Positions 52 to 30,096 of a stretch of DNA of 64,000 bases are shown piece by piece (positions within the stretch are counted from its first letter, which is position 1; every line of letters starts with the position of its first letter). The stretch covers positions 1 to 64,000 of IMG/VR virus record IMGVR_UViG_3300008448_000016. One strand, written 5' to 3'. The translations under genes were made by a program, and so were the position numbers. This stretch comes from a virus. Below the pieces are notes generated by a model that saw only the letters and a list, made by a program, of their open reading frames with translations, was not told the DNA's origin and did no database searches.

Positions 52-720
52 TTAATTTACGTTTTTCCAACTTCTACCATTTTTTAATTCATAGAAAAAA
101 CCTTTTCTAATTTGCGGGTAGAGTTCTGTTAATTGTTTAATTTTTATCCCCTCATTTATTTTTTGTTTTATTTCCTTAACTAATTCAACCCCATATTTTG
201 AGTTTTTTTGTTTAGTTTCATAAATTTTACTAACTCGTTTTTCTTTTTCTTCTTTTGATATTGATCCCCAACCTTTTTTAACTGATAATCTTCTTTTTTC
301 TCGTTCTTCGTCCGCCTTGTCCCCATATAACTCTTCATAAGTTTTACCTTTGTGTGAGTTACCATTTTTAGTATTTTCCGAAATTTTTTTCCTTATTTCA
401 GGCGAATGAACATATCCTAAACACCCTTCACCACCAAATGTAGAATTTAATCCATTTTTATACGTTTTGAATTCGGTAATATAAAATTTTTCTCTTTCAT
501 AAATATTTAATACATTACATTCTTCAATTATTTCTATATTAAAATTTTCAACCCCATATTTTCTAATAGAATTACAAAATTTAGTATTAGAGTCAGTTTT
601 TAAACATCTGTAAACGTGTTCTTCAAATCTTTTATTTATAGAATTAATCGTACATCCAATATATTCTTTTTTGTTTATTAGATTTGTTATTTTATATATG
701 TGTCCTTTTTGTGTGCTCAT
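52..720 (-). CDS. GIY-YIG homing-type endonuclease
   Basis: A 222-residue protein with the GIY-YIG nuclease fold at the N-terminus. The paired motifs are HIY at residues 7-9 and YIG at 20-22, followed by the conserved Arg of the KRFEEHVY segment (R31) and an acidic helix near residues 57-70 expected to supply the metal-binding Glu. The rest is Lys-rich, with a segment near 105-125 (PEIRKKISENTKNG) resembling the NUMOD3 DNA-binding repeats of phage seg-type enzymes. Such enzymes cut one DNA site and spread by recombination, and this one sits free-standing between small genes of unknown role. The ATG at 720 is the only good start. The family call is firm; the target site is unknown. Confidence 0.9.
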   Translation of the reverse strand: MSTQKGHIYKITNLINKKEYIGCTINSINKRFEEHVYRCLKTDSNTKFCNSIRKYGVENFNIEIIEECNVLNIYEREKFYITEFKTYKNGLNSTFGGEGCLGYVHSPEIRKKISENTKNGNSHKGKTYEELYGDKADEEREKRRLSVKKGWGSISKEEKEKRVSKIYETKQKNSKYGVELVKEIKQKINEGIKIKQLTELYPQIRKGFFYELKNGRSWKNVN

Positions 721-766: not shown

Positions 767-1108
767 TTATTTTAATCTCATTAAATTTTTTATGAATAAT
801 ATAACCTCATCAAGTTGTATTACATCGTATATTATCTTTATCTTATAAGTAGTTTCCACTTCTGTTTTTGATAGGTAAATATAAATTCCTGATTGATGTC
901 TAAATATACCATCTAAATGAACTAAACTACCACCATATGACTTACTATTTAAATATTCAGTTGTAAATTTTTTGGTTAATAGAAGTTCAGGTGTTAATGG
1001 TATTGGATCCATACAATCAATCACACTATATACTTTACCAGTTTTAGTTAATAAGGATTTCAAGAAATCTTCAACCCTACTAAAATATTTTATTTCATTA
1101 TTTTCCAT
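767..1108 (-). CDS. hypothetical protein, 113 aa
   Basis: I do not recognise this protein. It is a soluble-looking alpha/beta protein without signal peptide or membrane segment, rich in Leu, Lys and Ile. It starts 6 nt downstream of the truncated last repeat of the CRISPR-like array, in the same orientation, so any transcript through the array would continue into it. It is followed by a 46-nt gap and then the GIY-YIG endonuclease gene. The start ATG at 1108 is the first in frame after the array. Confidence 0.6.
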   Translation of the reverse strand: MENNEIKYFSRVEDFLKSLLTKTGKVYSVIDCMDPIPLTPELLLTKKFTTEYLNSKSYGGSLVHLDGIFRHQSGIYIYLSKTEVETTYKIKIIYDVIQLDEVILFIKNLMRLK

Positions 1109-1114
1109 ATTAAA

Positions 1115-1271
1115 TCAAATTATAGGTTTCCTCCAACAGTTTCTGTAAATAAGAGATTCGTCTGTGCAGGGTGTGAGTCCCCTCAAATTATAGGTTTCCT
1201 CCAACGTGGAATAAGAGGAATACTGAAAATAGTAGGGTGTGAGTCCCCTCAAATTATAGGTTTCCTCCAAC
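1115..1271 (-). repeat. CRISPR-like mini-array: two full and one truncated 37-nt repeat, two ~30-nt spacers
   Basis: Read on the minus strand, a 37-nt sequence starting GTTGGAGGAAACC and ending GGACTCACACCC occurs at 1271-1235 and again at 1205-1169, with no mismatch. The first 23 nt recur at 1137-1115, where the repeat breaks off. One extra base after each full copy is also shared. Spacers are 1206-1234 (29 nt) and 1138-1168 (31 nt); they differ from each other and from the rest of the window as far as I could scan. The repeat is about half G+C in a strongly AT-rich genome and contains codons unusual here (AGG, CTC, CCC). By memory its beginning and its TTTGAGGGG core resemble type VI-B (Cas13b) direct repeats of Bacteroidota. 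No cas gene is in the window. The alternative is a repeated 3' coding cassette, because copies 1 and 2 read in frame with the gene upstream. Confidence 0.7.
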
Positions 1272-1504
1272 CATATCTTCAGGATATCCTGTATTTGTTG
1301 ATATTCCATACCAAAAATGGTTTCAAAAAGTAACCAAATTCTTTTATAACTCACATAAAAAAACCCATTTTTTTTATCATGACAATAAAATAATAACGGT
1401 AATCTATCCTTATCAATGTAAAATGTTTTATCACCTCTAACTACTTTAGTTAAATTACCAAACTCCTTGTTTAACCAATTTATTATAATGTTCTGTTTTT
1501 TCAT
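1115..1504 (-). CDS. small unknown protein whose 3' end runs into the repeat array
   Basis: Residues 1-78 look like an ordinary small alpha/beta protein (start MKKQNIIINWLNKEFG; YHD and FYVSY strands; a final helix near 66-80). From residue 79 the frame enters the array: the first repeat encodes LEETYNLRGLTP (79-90), the first spacer encodes an unrelated stretch (91-100), and the second repeat encodes the same 12 residues (101-112). The third, truncated repeat is read in another frame and supplies the TGA stop, because the spacing changes from 66 to 68 nt. So the protein either ends in the array by chance or its own 3' end is the first repeat unit. No promoter is seen between it and the DUF932 terminator 7 nt upstream. 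Function unknown; I recognise no domain. Confidence 0.6.
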   Translation of the reverse strand: MKKQNIIINWLNKEFGNLTKVVRGDKTFYIDKDRLPLLFYCHDKKNGFFYVSYKRIWLLFETIFGMEYQQIQDILKIWLEETYNLRGLTPYYFQYSSYSTLEETYNLRGLTPCTDESLIYRNCWRKPII

Positions 1505-2355: not shown

Positions 2356-2404
2356 CTAACATCAAAAAAAATTTTAAAATTATGGGGTGTTTATACCAAA
2401 CCCA

Positions 2405-2414
2405 TATATTTATA
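2405..2414 (+). promoter_or_regulatory. TATTTAT-type promoter candidate before the second GIY-YIG gene
   Basis: TATATTTATA ends 3 nt before the preferred start at 2418. Such a short distance would imply a leaderless transcript, so this copy is less certain than those before the structural genes. Confidence 0.35.
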
Positions 2415-2417
2415 TAT

Positions 2418-3197
2418 ATGAGATGTTATGTTTATTTACACAGAAGATTAGACAATAATGAAGTTTTTTATGTTGGTAGAGGAACCGTTAATATAAAAGC
2501 TAGTGGTAAATGTGATACCAACACATATAGTCGTGCTTATGCTATTCATAAACATAATAAATATTGGATTAGAATAACAAATAAAGTTTCTTGGTCGGTT
2601 GAGATTATTGAGGATTTTTTAACTTGGGATGAATCCATGTTATCAGAAATTAAATACATAAAAAAGTATGGTAGGAAAGATTTAAATGAGGGGACTTTAG
2701 TTAATTTTACAGATGGTGGTGAGGGATCTAAAGGTGTTATTGTTTCAGAATTAGTTAAATCAATACAAAAAAATCGGATGAGTTCAGATGACAATCCAAT
2801 GAAACTACAACATAATAAAATAAAACAAAGTATTAGAATGAAAAAAAATAATCCAATGAAAAATAATGAAACCAAAAAAAAAGTTAGTGAATCACAAAAA
2901 TCCATTTGGTTAAATGGGACTGAAAATCATCCAAGAAAAAATAAACCTAGAGAAGATTTGAGGTTGAGAAACCTAACTAATAATCCAACTAAAAACCCAG
3001 AAGTTATTGAGAAAATAAGACAATCAGCATTAATGAGGGATAATAAAGGCGGTAAAAGTCCTAACGCAAAAAAAGTAATGGACGTAAATTCAGGTAAAAC
3101 ATACACATCAATAAAAGAATGTATGGAAGGAATGGGTATTTCTCACACTTCAATTTATCGTTATTTAAAAAATGGTAAAGTTATTTATATTAATTAA
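2418..3197 (+). CDS. GIY-YIG homing endonuclease with NUMOD-type DNA-binding tail
   Basis: 259 residues from the start at 2418 (MRCYVYLHRR). The nuclease motifs are YVY (4-6) and FYVGRG (17-22), with R39 and an acidic patch near EIIED (about 60-66). The middle (about 120-190) contains repeats of the NPMK / ETKKKVSES kind typical of NUMOD3. The last 45 residues (from AKKVMDVNSGKTY) have the NUMOD1 form: a short beta strand and a helix-turn-helix ending in IYRYLKNGK. It is the only plus-strand gene in the first 6 kb and ends by overlapping the next convergent gene by 4 nt, as expected of a recent insertion. An upstream in-frame ATG at 2382 would run through the promoter-like motif, so I do not use it. 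Confidence 0.9.
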   Translation: MRCYVYLHRRLDNNEVFYVGRGTVNIKASGKCDTNTYSRAYAIHKHNKYWIRITNKVSWSVEIIEDFLTWDESMLSEIKYIKKYGRKDLNEGTLVNFTDGGEGSKGVIVSELVKSIQKNRMSSDDNPMKLQHNKIKQSIRMKKNNPMKNNETKKKVSESQKSIWLNGTENHPRKNKPREDLRLRNLTNNPTKNPEVIEKIRQSALMRDNKGGKSPNAKKVMDVNSGKTYTSIKECMEGMGISHTSIYRYLKNGKVIYIN

Positions 3198-3505: not shown

Positions 3506-5350
3506 TTAAGATTCGTGATCAATGTGATAGAATCCGTCTCCTTCTTCCATCATTTTTCTTCTAAGTCTTTCCGGTATTTGAACATTCGGGCTTGATCCTG
3601 ACAATGAAATCAATTCCAAGAAATCAAGATCAGCCAAAGATTCAGGTAAAGATACCAAATTAGGATTATTCTGTAAAGTTAAGAACATTAAAGAATCTAT
3701 TTGTCCAATTTCTTCAGGTAATGTTTTAACACAATTTTCAAGAACCAACGCAATTAAGTTTTTGAACTTGGAAATTGATGGTGGTATATCCAAATTTAAA
3801 GTATCTGTTGATTTATTAACCAAAGTAAAATATGATATTGTATCAGGTAAATTTTTAAATAACTCATCAAAACCAAACAATGCGATGTATTTTGAGCTGT
3901 CATCGTTAGGATACTTAATATCAACTATTGAATCTCCTCCACTTGTTACTTGACCCGCATATTTAACTTTTAATTCCTCTTTCAAGTTTTTCAATGTTGG
4001 CATATTGATCAACGTAACATCCGCACTTGTAAGTTGTGATAAAGATTTTGTTCTCAAAGAATCAATCTTTCTTGCCAAATAATATTTAACAACTTCAGGT
4101 TCGGAGTTCTTAATCATATCACCAGTTAAATCCATACCCAATGAAATGTATTTCTTTTTAAGTTCAACAGGTAAATTAATATAAACATTAGGTCTGTTTG
4201 TTAGATTTGGACTTGATATTTCAAGCCAAAATTCAGCATCCTCAACAGATCCAAGTTCCTTAACCGCATCATCTTGGATGGAGATATTTTTGTACTTTCT
4301 CAATAACGCTTTTTCTCTATCAGTTAGAGGATCTGGAGTAAACAAATATTCTTTATCTGCCAATTTAGGAACTTTTTCTGAAATTGTTCTCCAATTCTCA
4401 ACTCTATGTCCTGAGAATCCTCCCGCCATATTTTTACCGTCAGCAATTCTTTTTCCACCGTAAGTATCAACAAGAATAACAACAGCAAAGTTTAGATCAT
4501 CATATGGTTTATCTCTATCAATAACATAATAAAGTGTTAGGTTGTTCTCCAAACGATAGTTATAGTAAAGGTTACCTCCACCTATTCTTGATGTACACCA
4601 AGGTCTACCATGTGCCAATCTAATACATTGTTCTTTCCCGTTTGGTTTAAAGATATATAAATTATCCTTATCATAGATAGTTTCAATATCACCAAAATCA
4701 TCTGTTTTCTTTGTTTGAGTATCATCACCATCAGGTAAATGGTCAAGCGCAGCCTCAAGATCATCAAATGACATTAATAAAATTGGTGGAGTTCCTGGTT
4801 CTAATCTATCATACAGATCAATATATCTTTCCACATATGATAATATCTGCTCATTAGTTAAGTCACTTCTTTCCTTTCTAAACTTATCATAAGCATATTT
4901 TGTAATTAGAGTTGGGAATTTGTTTTGAATTAATTCACTTAATCTTAAATATGAATATCTCATTAAATCTCTCTCACCTTTAGGAAGTAGATCTCTAATC
5001 TCCAAAAACTTTTTGATCAATCTCTTTACAACTCTTTGATCAGATCCTTTTACTTTTGGCATATACTTTTTGAACAACTCCCCTTCTTCTTTCTTGATTC
5101 TTTTAGACCTAATAGTAGAAACCAATTGTTCATAACTATATTTTGTAATATCTCTTTTTTCTGCTGGTAATCCGGCTTTGATCTTTTCAAAGTCGTTAAT
5201 ATATGTTTTAATTTGATCTTCAGCATCTTCAGTTTCCTTACTGAACTTTACAATTAGTTGATTCATCAATTTATTTGATATCTCGGTCAACTTCAACTTT
5301 GGGGTAACTTTTTCTTGTACTACGGATGATAAAATTTTTACTAATTCCAT
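3506..5350 (-). CDS. large unknown protein with WCT-motif domain and C-terminal leucine-rich repeats
   Basis: 614 residues. The first ~190 are helical with two similar halves, each containing an IxKYSYxQL or LMRYSYLRL motif. The middle (about 225-335) contains GRPWCTSRIGGGN followed by a Tyr-rich strand and YYVIDRDKPYDDLNFAVV. I have seen this WCT/Tyr/D arrangement in proteins of other large phages, where its role is unknown. The last ~100 residues resemble leucine-rich repeats (LPEEIGQIDSLMFLTLQNN; SLPESLADLDFLELISL), which usually bind proteins. A TATTTAT motif lies 15 nt before the ATG. No enzyme activity can be assigned; a protein-binding or virion-associated role is possible. Confidence 0.65.
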   Translation of the reverse strand: MELVKILSSVVQEKVTPKLKLTEISNKLMNQLIVKFSKETEDAEDQIKTYINDFEKIKAGLPAEKRDITKYSYEQLVSTIRSKRIKKEEGELFKKYMPKVKGSDQRVVKRLIKKFLEIRDLLPKGERDLMRYSYLRLSELIQNKFPTLITKYAYDKFRKERSDLTNEQILSYVERYIDLYDRLEPGTPPILLMSFDDLEAALDHLPDGDDTQTKKTDDFGDIETIYDKDNLYIFKPNGKEQCIRLAHGRPWCTSRIGGGNLYYNYRLENNLTLYYVIDRDKPYDDLNFAVVILVDTYGGKRIADGKNMAGGFSGHRVENWRTISEKVPKLADKEYLFTPDPLTDREKALLRKYKNISIQDDAVKELGSVEDAEFWLEISSPNLTNRPNVYINLPVELKKKYISLGMDLTGDMIKNSEPEVVKYYLARKIDSLRTKSLSQLTSADVTLINMPTLKNLKEELKVKYAGQVTSGGDSIVDIKYPNDDSSKYIALFGFDELFKNLPDTISYFTLVNKSTDTLNLDIPPSISKFKNLIALVLENCVKTLPEEIGQIDSLMFLTLQNNPNLVSLPESLADLDFLELISLSGSSPNVQIPERLRRKMMEEGDGFYHIDHES

Positions 5351-28344: not shown

Positions 28345-30096
28345 ATGTTTCCATATAAGAATCCAATAACACCGATACAAATAATTGGCACACAAAGTGT
28401 GTCAAGAGATAAGTCTTTTGGTACAAATTTTAGTACCCTATCTACAGGTGGATACATGGAAGTATATTCACTTGATCAATTATATTATACAATACCACCC
28501 TCAACATACGGAGCAATTAATTTTTCAGGTAATTCAATACCTATAATGTTTTCAAAGGGTAGTGGGACGACATTTTCATTAGACACTCTAACTTTAAGTC
28601 CTGATAATATTTCTTCGGGTAGAAGAAAAATTGGTATGTTGGTTTATGTAAAAAATGAGGATCAAGTATATCAATACAACATTGATAACTATGAGTCTTT
28701 ATGGAATTCAGCCACAGGAGCAACAGGTGTTGGTGGGTCAACAGTTGTAATATCAGATTTTGGTACAACAGTAAAGGCAAATTCACCTGAAGGTATTGCA
28801 TTTATTAGTGGTTGGACTGCAAATACTATTGATGGTGTTAGTGGAGTAACTAGACCTAATGCTGTTTGGAAAAAATATTATGGAAATAATCTTTCAATAA
28901 CGGGAGGATCCTATAGTATGGGTACACTCACGTTAGTTAACATAACGGGAGGTACAGTAAATATAACAGGTATTTCAGGTGGTAGCGGTGGTGATTCCAT
29001 TACTGGGGGTACATTTAATTATAACACGGGGACATTATCTTTAAATTCAACAGGAGGTACAATAACCATAACAGGTTTTACAGATGTTTATGTAACTGGT
29101 GGGACATATAACAATTCAACGGGAATCGCAACTTTTACAAACAATACAGGCGGAACATTTAATGTTAGTGGATTTACAACAGGCGGAACATCTGGGACTG
29201 ATGTATTTGTAACAGGAGGAACATATTCATCAGGAACTGCAATATTTACAAATAATACGGGAGGGACATTTAATGTTTCAGGATTTTACACGGGAGGAAC
29301 TGATGTATTTGTAACAGGAGGGACTTATTCTGCAGGAACAATAACTTTTACAAACATAACAGGGGGTACTTTTGACGTAACAGGATTAACAACAGGATCA
29401 ACATCAGTCATTAGTGGTGAATATTTACCTTTAAGTGGTGGTACAGTAACCGGTAATACAATTTTCACCCAAGGTTTAACTGCGACAACAATATCTGCAA
29501 CAACATATCAAAATTTACCTTTGGATGTTTTTGTAACAGGAGGAACGTATTCAGGTGGTACTGCGATTTTTACTAATAATACTGGAGGCACATTTACTGT
29601 TACAGGTTTTACAACAGGTGGAACGTCAGGTGTTGATGTATTTGTTACGGGTGGTACGTATTCAAATGGAACTGCGATTTTTACAAATAATACGGGAGGT
29701 ACATTTAATGTAAGTGGTTTTACATCTACAGGCGTCACTCTAGGATCTTTTGGTATAACGATAGATGGTGGTGGGTCTGTTATTACAACAGGGTTGAAGA
29801 ATTATTTATCTTTACCTTATAATGGATATATTACAGGATGGGTAATAATTGGGGATCAGTCTGGATCCACTTCTGTTGATATATGGAAAGATTCTTATGG
29901 TAATTTTCCACCTACAGTTGCAGATTCAATAACAGGAGGAAACTATCCTTCATTAAGTTCTCAACAAATTAATCAAGACACCACTTTAAGTGGATGGACA
30001 ACTAATTTTTCGGTTGGTGATATAGTTGCTTTTAATGTTTTATCGGCATCAACCGTAACAAAAATAAATTTAACAATTAATGTTATAAAAACATAA
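28345..30096 (+). CDS. fibre protein with GTF(N/T)VSGF-type repeats, 583 aa
   Basis: The N-terminal ~185 residues form a globular domain. Then come Gly/Thr-rich repeats of about 28-35 residues, with a core of DVFVTGGTYSSGTAIFTNN followed by TGGTFNVSGF, four good copies and several partial ones (about 190-470). These predict a triple-stranded beta rod. A C-terminal domain (about 470-583) probably carries the tip. The repeat sequence is well conserved at protein level while codons differ. A tail fibre or whisker is the most likely role. Confidence 0.7.
   Translation: MFPYKNPITPIQIIGTQSVSRDKSFGTNFSTLSTGGYMEVYSLDQLYYTIPPSTYGAINFSGNSIPIMFSKGSGTTFSLDTLTLSPDNISSGRRKIGMLVYVKNEDQVYQYNIDNYESLWNSATGATGVGGSTVVISDFGTTVKANSPEGIAFISGWTANTIDGVSGVTRPNAVWKKYYGNNLSITGGSYSMGTLTLVNITGGTVNITGISGGSGGDSITGGTFNYNTGTLSLNSTGGTITITGFTDVYVTGGTYNNSTGIATFTNNTGGTFNVSGFTTGGTSGTDVFVTGGTYSSGTAIFTNNTGGTFNVSGFYTGGTDVFVTGGTYSAGTITFTNITGGTFDVTGLTTGSTSVISGEYLPLSGGTVTGNTIFTQGLTATTISATTYQNLPLDVFVTGGTYSGGTAIFTNNTGGTFTVTGFTTGGTSGVDVFVTGGTYSNGTAIFTNNTGGTFNVSGFTSTGVTLGSFGITIDGGGSVITTGLKNYLSLPYNGYITGWVIIGDQSGSTSVDIWKDSYGNFPPTVADSITGGNYPSLSSQQINQDTTLSGWTTNFSVGDIVAFNVLSASTVTKINLTINVIKT

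Follow-up and report, generated by a model that had tools for sequence, protein, structure and literature searches.

Diversity-generating retroelements give a phage gene a hypervariable C-terminal end, and orphan Rhs/CdiA tips are silent C-terminal cassettes that share a stretch with a gene and can be swapped into it. CRISPR arrays combine 36-nt repeats, unique inserts of about 30 nt, a degenerate terminal repeat and old inserts shared at the far end. Virus-borne mini-CRISPR arrays are the nearest CRISPR comparison for the locus that we describe (Medvedeva 2019, PMC6858448). RNA anti-CRISPRs, or solitary repeat units, are CRISPR-like phage repeats that occur without cas genes, and type VI is excepted from the types among which they were found (Camara-Wilpert 2023, PMC10651486).

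We analyzed arrays at the ends of phage genes that resemble CRISPR arrays in each of the respects listed above. In our main reading, to which we give a probability of about 0.5, the final 36 nt of a phage gene would serve as the repeat of a gene-end array, and each unit would add about 30 nt of captured foreign DNA. Unlike CRISPR arrays, gene-end arrays have a coding first repeat that follows a protein motif, and no cas genes, protospacers or conserved fold were found. With RNA anti-CRISPRs they share a CRISPR-like phage repeat without cas genes; they differ in that their units form arrays inside a gene family and in that the repeat does not share the fold of its supposed model. Like orphan Rhs/CdiA tips, gene-end arrays have, downstream of the gene, potentially swappable modules with a stretch in common with it, but these modules measure 66 nt, yield a tail of about ten residues and are foreign in composition.

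The window, the whole stretch of DNA analyzed here, covers bases 1-64000 of a 107,236-base IMG/VR virus record (IMGVR_UViG_3300008448_000016), and the array gene lies on its minus strand (Table 1), which the preliminary description had left unstated. As that description had it, residues 79-90 and 101-112 of the 129-aa ORF both read LEETYNLRGLTP, the copies are spaced by 66 and then 68 nt, and the third copy is out of frame and supplies the stop. The ORF runs from the domain through repeat 1, insert 1, repeat 2 and insert 2 to a C-terminal WRKPII, which is the truncated third repeat translated in a different frame. Repeat 1 encodes the final 12 residues of the domain, and repeat length in this array is 36-38 nt. 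The 22-nt core of insert 2 had a sole match in viral_contigs, contig 3300032093_000500, with which the present contig agrees letter for letter in the part compared. A gene that starts like the next gene downstream (MENEIKYF) also follows the arrays of two other loci (L008 and L009). Homing endonuclease-like genes flank the array region at 52-720 (minus strand) and 2382-3197 (plus strand); both matched phrog_314, and the one at 52-720 also matched GIY-YIG PF01541.

Table 1. Features of the array gene, of the second locus in the same contig and of example arrays of family 2 (window positions unless another sequence is named)
Feature	Position	Strand	Basis or remark
Whole ORF, 129 aa	1115-1504	-	ORF list and sequence reading
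Conserved domain, about 90 residues, ends WLEETYNLRGLTP	1235-1504	-	ORF, relatives, structure model
Repeat 1, 36 nt, within gene, GTTGGAGGAAACCTATAATTTGAGGGGACTCACACC	1236-1271	-	
Insert 1, 30 nt, read as YYFQYSSYST between both full repeats	1206-1235	-	
Repeat 2, 36 nt, same letters as repeat 1, in frame	1170-1205	-	
Insert 2, 32 nt	1138-1169	-	
Terminal repeat, only first 23 nt kept; final three bases are stop codon TGA	1115-1137	-	
Next gene, 113 aa, begins 6 nt past array	767-1108	-	weak PHROG 10066
Same domain behind iron/manganese superoxide dismutase	contig 98,042-98,302 (outside window)		Sod_Fe_C 2.1e-40
Single ORF: HEWVH part, superoxide dismutase, array domain	L004:2921-4321 = contig 96,920-98,320	+	
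Family-2 example	L234:6237-7376	+	more in L235-L298
Family-2 example	L159:13868-14623	+	
Family-2 example	L152:16066-16986	+	

Gene and array recur together, as the preliminary description had suggested. Relatives of the domain (family 1) were found at 9 loci of viral contigs first and at 69 in a later search. We counted as a further copy any match of at least 15 of 22 positions to the 5' part of a gene's own repeat, 58-79 nt downstream, and left out copies with a domain match that stopped short of model position 91, copies without the W anchor and identical copies. In the first set, 63 of 109 distinct relatives carried a further copy, as against 7 of 2180 shuffled controls, so the recurrence of the repeat is not due to chance. 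In a larger body of sequence, with copies too close to a sequence end left out as well, at least one further copy of the gene's own end followed 64 of 114 distinct domain copies; this gave 103 distinct inserts, among which a few orthologous near-copies remain and which come from sequences that overlap. Relatives without a repeat, a sign of accidental adjacency according to the preliminary description, do exist, since 50 of the 114 lack a clear second copy. The adjacency is nonetheless not accidental, because a weak remnant (at least 13 of 22) stands at the right place in 15 of those 50, compared with 5 of 50 and 6 of 50 in control zones.

Distinct arrays could be read in 45 sequences for family 1 and in 39 for a second family described below, and they consist of near-identical direct repeats at regular spacing with unique inserts that hardly vary in length. 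Unit length keeps within narrow limits: it is 65-68 nt in 101 of 105 family-1 units (search range 58-79), with inserts of 29-32 nt in 99 of 103. No array of the first set exceeds five units. A scan of the phage DNA that made no reference to the gene looked for split repeats with spacings of 40-120 nt and peaked at 65-67 nt, where 79 of 165 families fell, not all of them independent. Gene plus array had been suggested to be undescribed, and Pfam, PHROGs, PADLOC and paper searches (open-access text only) indeed gave no described family for it and nothing on gene-end arrays in phages. Even without capture, the array type is widespread and has no family named by these databases.

Most later repeats are copied from the end of their own gene, which bears out the proposal that the copied part is the end of the coding sequence. 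Among 44 later full repeats, 33 are closest to their own repeat 1 (24 are identical to it), 2 tie and 9 are nearer another locus; the mean match is 35.0/36 to the own gene end and 24.6/36 to other gene ends. Mismatches to repeat 1 rise with distance from the gene, at 0.69, 1.22, 2.25 and 2.0 for units 1-4 (n = 29, 9, 4 and 2). The inserts are new, as had been suggested, and mutually unrelated: their similarity is 0.356 within arrays (65 pairs), 0.346 between arrays and 0.347 for shuffled letters. Another conceivable origin of such a locus is a plain tandem duplication of the gene end, through slippage or unequal crossing-over, after which the inserts drift. Units do stand in tandem, and their number varies between close phages. 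However, inserts of the same array are as unlike as shuffled letters while neighboring repeats are often identical, and since repeats match their own gene and the inserts of one array are unrelated, duplication followed by drift is contradicted; we regard it as very improbable.

A second locus in the same contig carries the domain behind a superoxide dismutase (SOD). Its repeats start at 98,266, 98,333 and 98,400, 67 nt apart, and are followed by a degenerate final copy. Repeats 1 and 2 of this locus are identical and differ from those of the 1504-1115 locus at six of 36 positions; because the SOD repeats agree mutually and differ from the ones in the window, each locus repeats its own gene end. 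This contig, L048 and L050 have the first unit of the SOD locus, which their close relatives L049 and L200 lack. Its presence is independent of the downstream haplotype, which argues that some unit changes are losses or recombination. In the fusion ORF at 96,920-98,320, LISE and TINE stand between the parts. We take the HEWVH motif to be metallopeptidase-like; with LISE and TINE at its junctions, the ORF presumably resembles the head polyproteins that T4-type proteases cleave. SOD insert 2 has a 20-nt match in a GC-rich contig (L203, reverse strand, near base 4364), in a gene that we assume to be ADP-ribosyltransferase-like (motif IVYRGF); the match ends at the query-word ends, with flanks that disagree, and was set aside as chance.

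Units differ between close phages at other loci as well. A gene-distal insert is common to L026, L030, L045 and the SOD loci, and the gene-proximal end differs; another distal insert is common to L029, L046 and L047, with three extra units before it in L046. Conserved distal and differing proximal units would fit growth beside the gene and are not proof of it, and direct support for a gain rather than a loss of units is weak. Clear sharing of inserts in family 1 occurs only at seemingly corresponding array positions. At L030 (3629-3962, plus strand), three adjacent inserts begin alike (AACTTGG or TACTTGG) and then diverge, as if the copied stretch sometimes exceeded the 36-nt repeat.

The preliminary description held that the unit is conserved as DNA rather than as protein. 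For family 1 this is not fully right, as stops are scarcer in the gene frame of the inserts (32 of 949 codons) than in their five other frames (286 of 4829; Fisher p 0.001). Later inserts taken alone show the same (11 of 380 versus 114 of 1930; p 0.018), as though they had once been first inserts. The family-1 tail is not under strict coding control, because 17 of 64 first inserts hold a stop and, of the other 47, 25 run into repeat 2 out of frame; in the examples examined, the out-of-frame repeat itself supplies the stop (VGRDL and WxxPII ends). The best reading is that the array in part rewrites the protein tail of its own gene. A diversity-generating retroelement acting on the gene end would likewise make the C-terminus encoded by a phage gene variable. 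Here, however, no reverse transcriptase was found in 48 phage records, many of them fragments, and no template repeat: for the five inserts of this contig there was no template differing only at A, and the best A-rich stretches had 1 to 4 other mismatches. The inserts are also unrelated and without a common backbone, so that we find a retroelement hardly conceivable.

Family 2 was met first in L234, a contig found through one insert. Its domain, in which the elements follow each other as in the family-1 domain, is perhaps a distant relative of the latter (hhalign probability only 9.5%, E 0.0034). In L234, a small domain is followed by 12 repeats (at least 62% DNA identity) of the type VEDTI(D/Q)NGVKET in a single frame, with inserts of about ten residues, and family-2 proteins consist of the domain and up to 12 or more modules. 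A scan with three family-2 domains gave 64 loci. We read 268 distinct units from 39 sequences: every spacing (268/268) is divisible by 3, 217 measure 66 nt, and no stop occurs among 2555 insert codons. With its arrays read in a single frame, family 2 speaks against the idea of conservation as DNA and not as protein.

The 235 insert peptides of family 2 form 194 clusters, 35 of which occur in at least two loci (close relatives counted apart) and 159 in one. Modules have been shuffled between phages, because clusters are shared across loci in different orders; the same module stands in different arrays, as in exchangeable cassettes, and units differ also in mid-array. Compared with Pfam and PHROG, the family-2 protein gave chance-level scores only; tape-measure proteins from unrelated phages match it weakly, and its structure model (pLDDT 36) is unusable.

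We compared the composition of the 103 family-1 inserts with 1000 fragment sets from the same sequences that carry the arrays. The inserts have a G+C content of 0.353 versus 0.312 for own-phage fragments (z 4.3) and a GpC ratio of 1.006 versus 0.526 (z 5.9), so that the strong depletion of the phages is absent. The phage excess of CC is missing as well (z -3.8), CpG stands at z 2.4 and the other six ratios lie within 1.6 sd. A first-order Bacteroidota model beats the own-phage model on the inserts by 27.9 log units, while on random phage fragments the phage model is better by 43.8 log units (sd 10.0); the Bacteroidota baseline is small (14 loci, 56 kb pooled, 30-40% G+C), and the AG and AT ratios of the inserts fit the phages better than this baseline. 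Strand skew is absent from family-1 inserts (AT -0.015, GC -0.007) but present in their flanks, at 0.064 and 0.261 on the coding strand just upstream and at 0.098 and 0.071 downstream. Insert composition is flat across codon positions, and depletion of TpA with an excess of AA argues against random untemplated letters. Fragments of foreign DNA captured in either orientation would look like this.

The two families differ in how composition relates to age. Young family-2 inserts, those between near-consensus repeats, are 30 nt long in 41 of 43 cases within units of exactly 66 nt in 41 of 43, and are foreign-like (+0.243 per 30 nt, se 0.203). Old ones, whose neighboring repeats have diverged, come in various lengths and score like phage DNA (-0.494, se 0.082; random phage -0.432), a contrast that we read as a probable age gradient. 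Family 1 has none, its first inserts in multi-unit arrays (-0.083, se 0.185) being no more foreign-like than terminal ones (0.317, se 0.157). Family-2 inserts show strand skews of 0.109 and 0.103, as expected of sequence kept in frame.

These data also bear on whether tails are exchanged without any capture. As with silent C-terminal cassettes, identical repeats at paralogous or sister-phage loci might recombine homologously and so reshuffle old modules, whose inserts would have arisen slowly by ordinary mutation. Such exchange is supported by the 35 family-2 clusters found in several loci in differing orders, by the first SOD-locus unit, which comes and goes, and by tandem array genes that a partial repeat separates. 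Yet family-1 repeats mostly follow their own gene end and not a shared pool, the inserts are non-phage in composition and strand-neutral, and the young inserts of family 2 are the least phage-like. In addition, the 159 other clusters are confined to one locus each, and 51 of 105 family-1 unit lengths are not divisible by 3. We consider reshuffling alone possible, but rather unlikely.

Searches for the origin of the inserts yielded no source. Family-1 inserts gave 29 matches outside arrays in 2.2 Mb of related, partly redundant phage DNA, versus 21 for reversed inserts; family-2 inserts of at least 24 nt (of 250) gave 54 matches in 2.6 Mb, versus 39 when reversed. Five single insert cores matched only array-carrying contigs in viral_contigs, plus the 20-mer match of SOD insert 2 described above, and two inserts compared with phages and one with plasmids returned a single weak match, 24 of 27 in a Klebsiella phage (E 0.2), which was attributed to chance. 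One insert that we had assumed to be recognizable as a Bacteroidota repeat was found in 0 of 395 genomes at 3 mismatches and was dropped.

The arrays might instead be used through RNA, as a mini-CRISPR or an RNA anti-CRISPR that mimics the 36-nt type VI-B (Cas13b) repeat of Bacteroidota with its 30-nt spacers. Type VI-B arrays of Bergeyella, Riemerella and Capnocytophaga have the repeat length, 66-nt period and orientation of gene-end arrays; for the Bergeyella Cas13b array, repeat length, spacing and orientation are equal, and its repeat has at least 22 of 36 letters in common with 22 distinct phage repeats. On both strands of 560 kb of phage DNA, these repeats are the best sites for the Bergeyella repeat (25/36 versus 24/36 elsewhere) and for that of Capnocytophaga (26/36 versus 24/36), but the Riemerella repeat ties with the best other site (24/36 each), and the significance of the type VI-B match is inflated because type VI-B was singled out for the comparison.

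Gene-end arrays nevertheless differ from type VI-B arrays in fold, coding nature and effector gene. Cas13b repeats fold (z -3.4 and -2.1) while six phage repeats do not (z -0.86 to 0.74), and no base pair is conserved among 29 phage repeats. Run on 395 Bacteroidota genomes, a profile of the phage repeat gave only partial matches at scattered sites and picked up no array, not even the Bergeyella one. Cas13b exceeded the NCBIfam cut-off in 3 of the 395 genomes and in 0 of 12 large phage records; Cas1 was found in 0 of 48 domain-holding phage records, many of them fragments (control positive in 9 of 14 genomes), and Cas2 in 0 of the 12 large records (control positive in 7 of 14). No protospacers were found, and family 2 is in frame throughout. 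Type VI-B mimicry, once favored, has been weakened by the fold, profile and effector searches, and RNA-guided use now appears improbable.

If gene-end arrays do capture foreign DNA, a new unit would enter beside the gene, with the first repeat duplicated around the captured fragment. The new insert would then become the translated C-terminal tail and the previous tail would move downstream as an archive, from which recombination between identical repeats could remove or swap units. Insertion might be carried out by a length-measuring integrase, perhaps the CRISPR adaptation enzymes of the host, to which the gene end may happen to resemble a leader followed by a repeat. The benefit could be fast renewal of the tail of a small protein, possibly packaged in the head and injected, that meets changing host targets. 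We tentatively propose that large phages, probably of Bacteroidota, could take up about 30 bp of host-like DNA by a route other than CRISPR-Cas, in either orientation and with duplication of a 36-nt site, and express the captured DNA as protein. Were this so, the array would keep its record in peptides and not in guide RNAs, and in family 2 twelve or more captured peptides, each of about 10 residues, would make up one protein. Capture would also mean that the geometry of CRISPR adaptation can have protein as its product, which would be a new source of protein sequence and a new place to seek integrases, and would offer a testable case of how a hypervariable phage protein originates.

The family-1 domain is predicted to form a helix, four strands and two helices (model pLDDT 87). 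It matched no Pfam, PHROG or PADLOC family beyond chance level and no PDB fold at E <= 0.001 (best 0.35); BFVD structures matched two uncharacterized phage proteins at E 8e-4 and a third at 1e-3. Among 50,697 phage records there was no relative at E 0.01, and another member used as query gave a weak partial match at E 0.3. With Rfam, nothing at the 1504-1115 locus reached the cut-off of any family.

Most of 15 fused copies of the domain have INE, ITE, FNE or FTE preceding it, and many unfused copies begin MKIIITE. To us, the INE-type sites and MKIIITE starts recall T4 prohead-protease sites and injected head proteins. T4 internal head proteins carry a capsid-targeting leader, and some relatives of the array gene similarly start with MKIIITE or follow an INE site; the 131 ORFs of this contig, unlike those T4 proteins, have no such leader (0/131), a comparison known here from sequence motifs. 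The MKIIITE-like leader occurs in 75 of 2589 ORFs in 80 stretches of related records (L118-L197), and it is perhaps head-targeting in part of the phage group.

GpC is strongly depleted in related phage stretches (ratio about 0.55), compared with 1.09 in six Bacteroidota loci, perhaps through base modification or restriction avoidance. Elsewhere in the window, units of 102 and 111 nt are tandemly repeated at 29197-29724; they read TDVFVTGGTYS and possibly lie within a structural gene.
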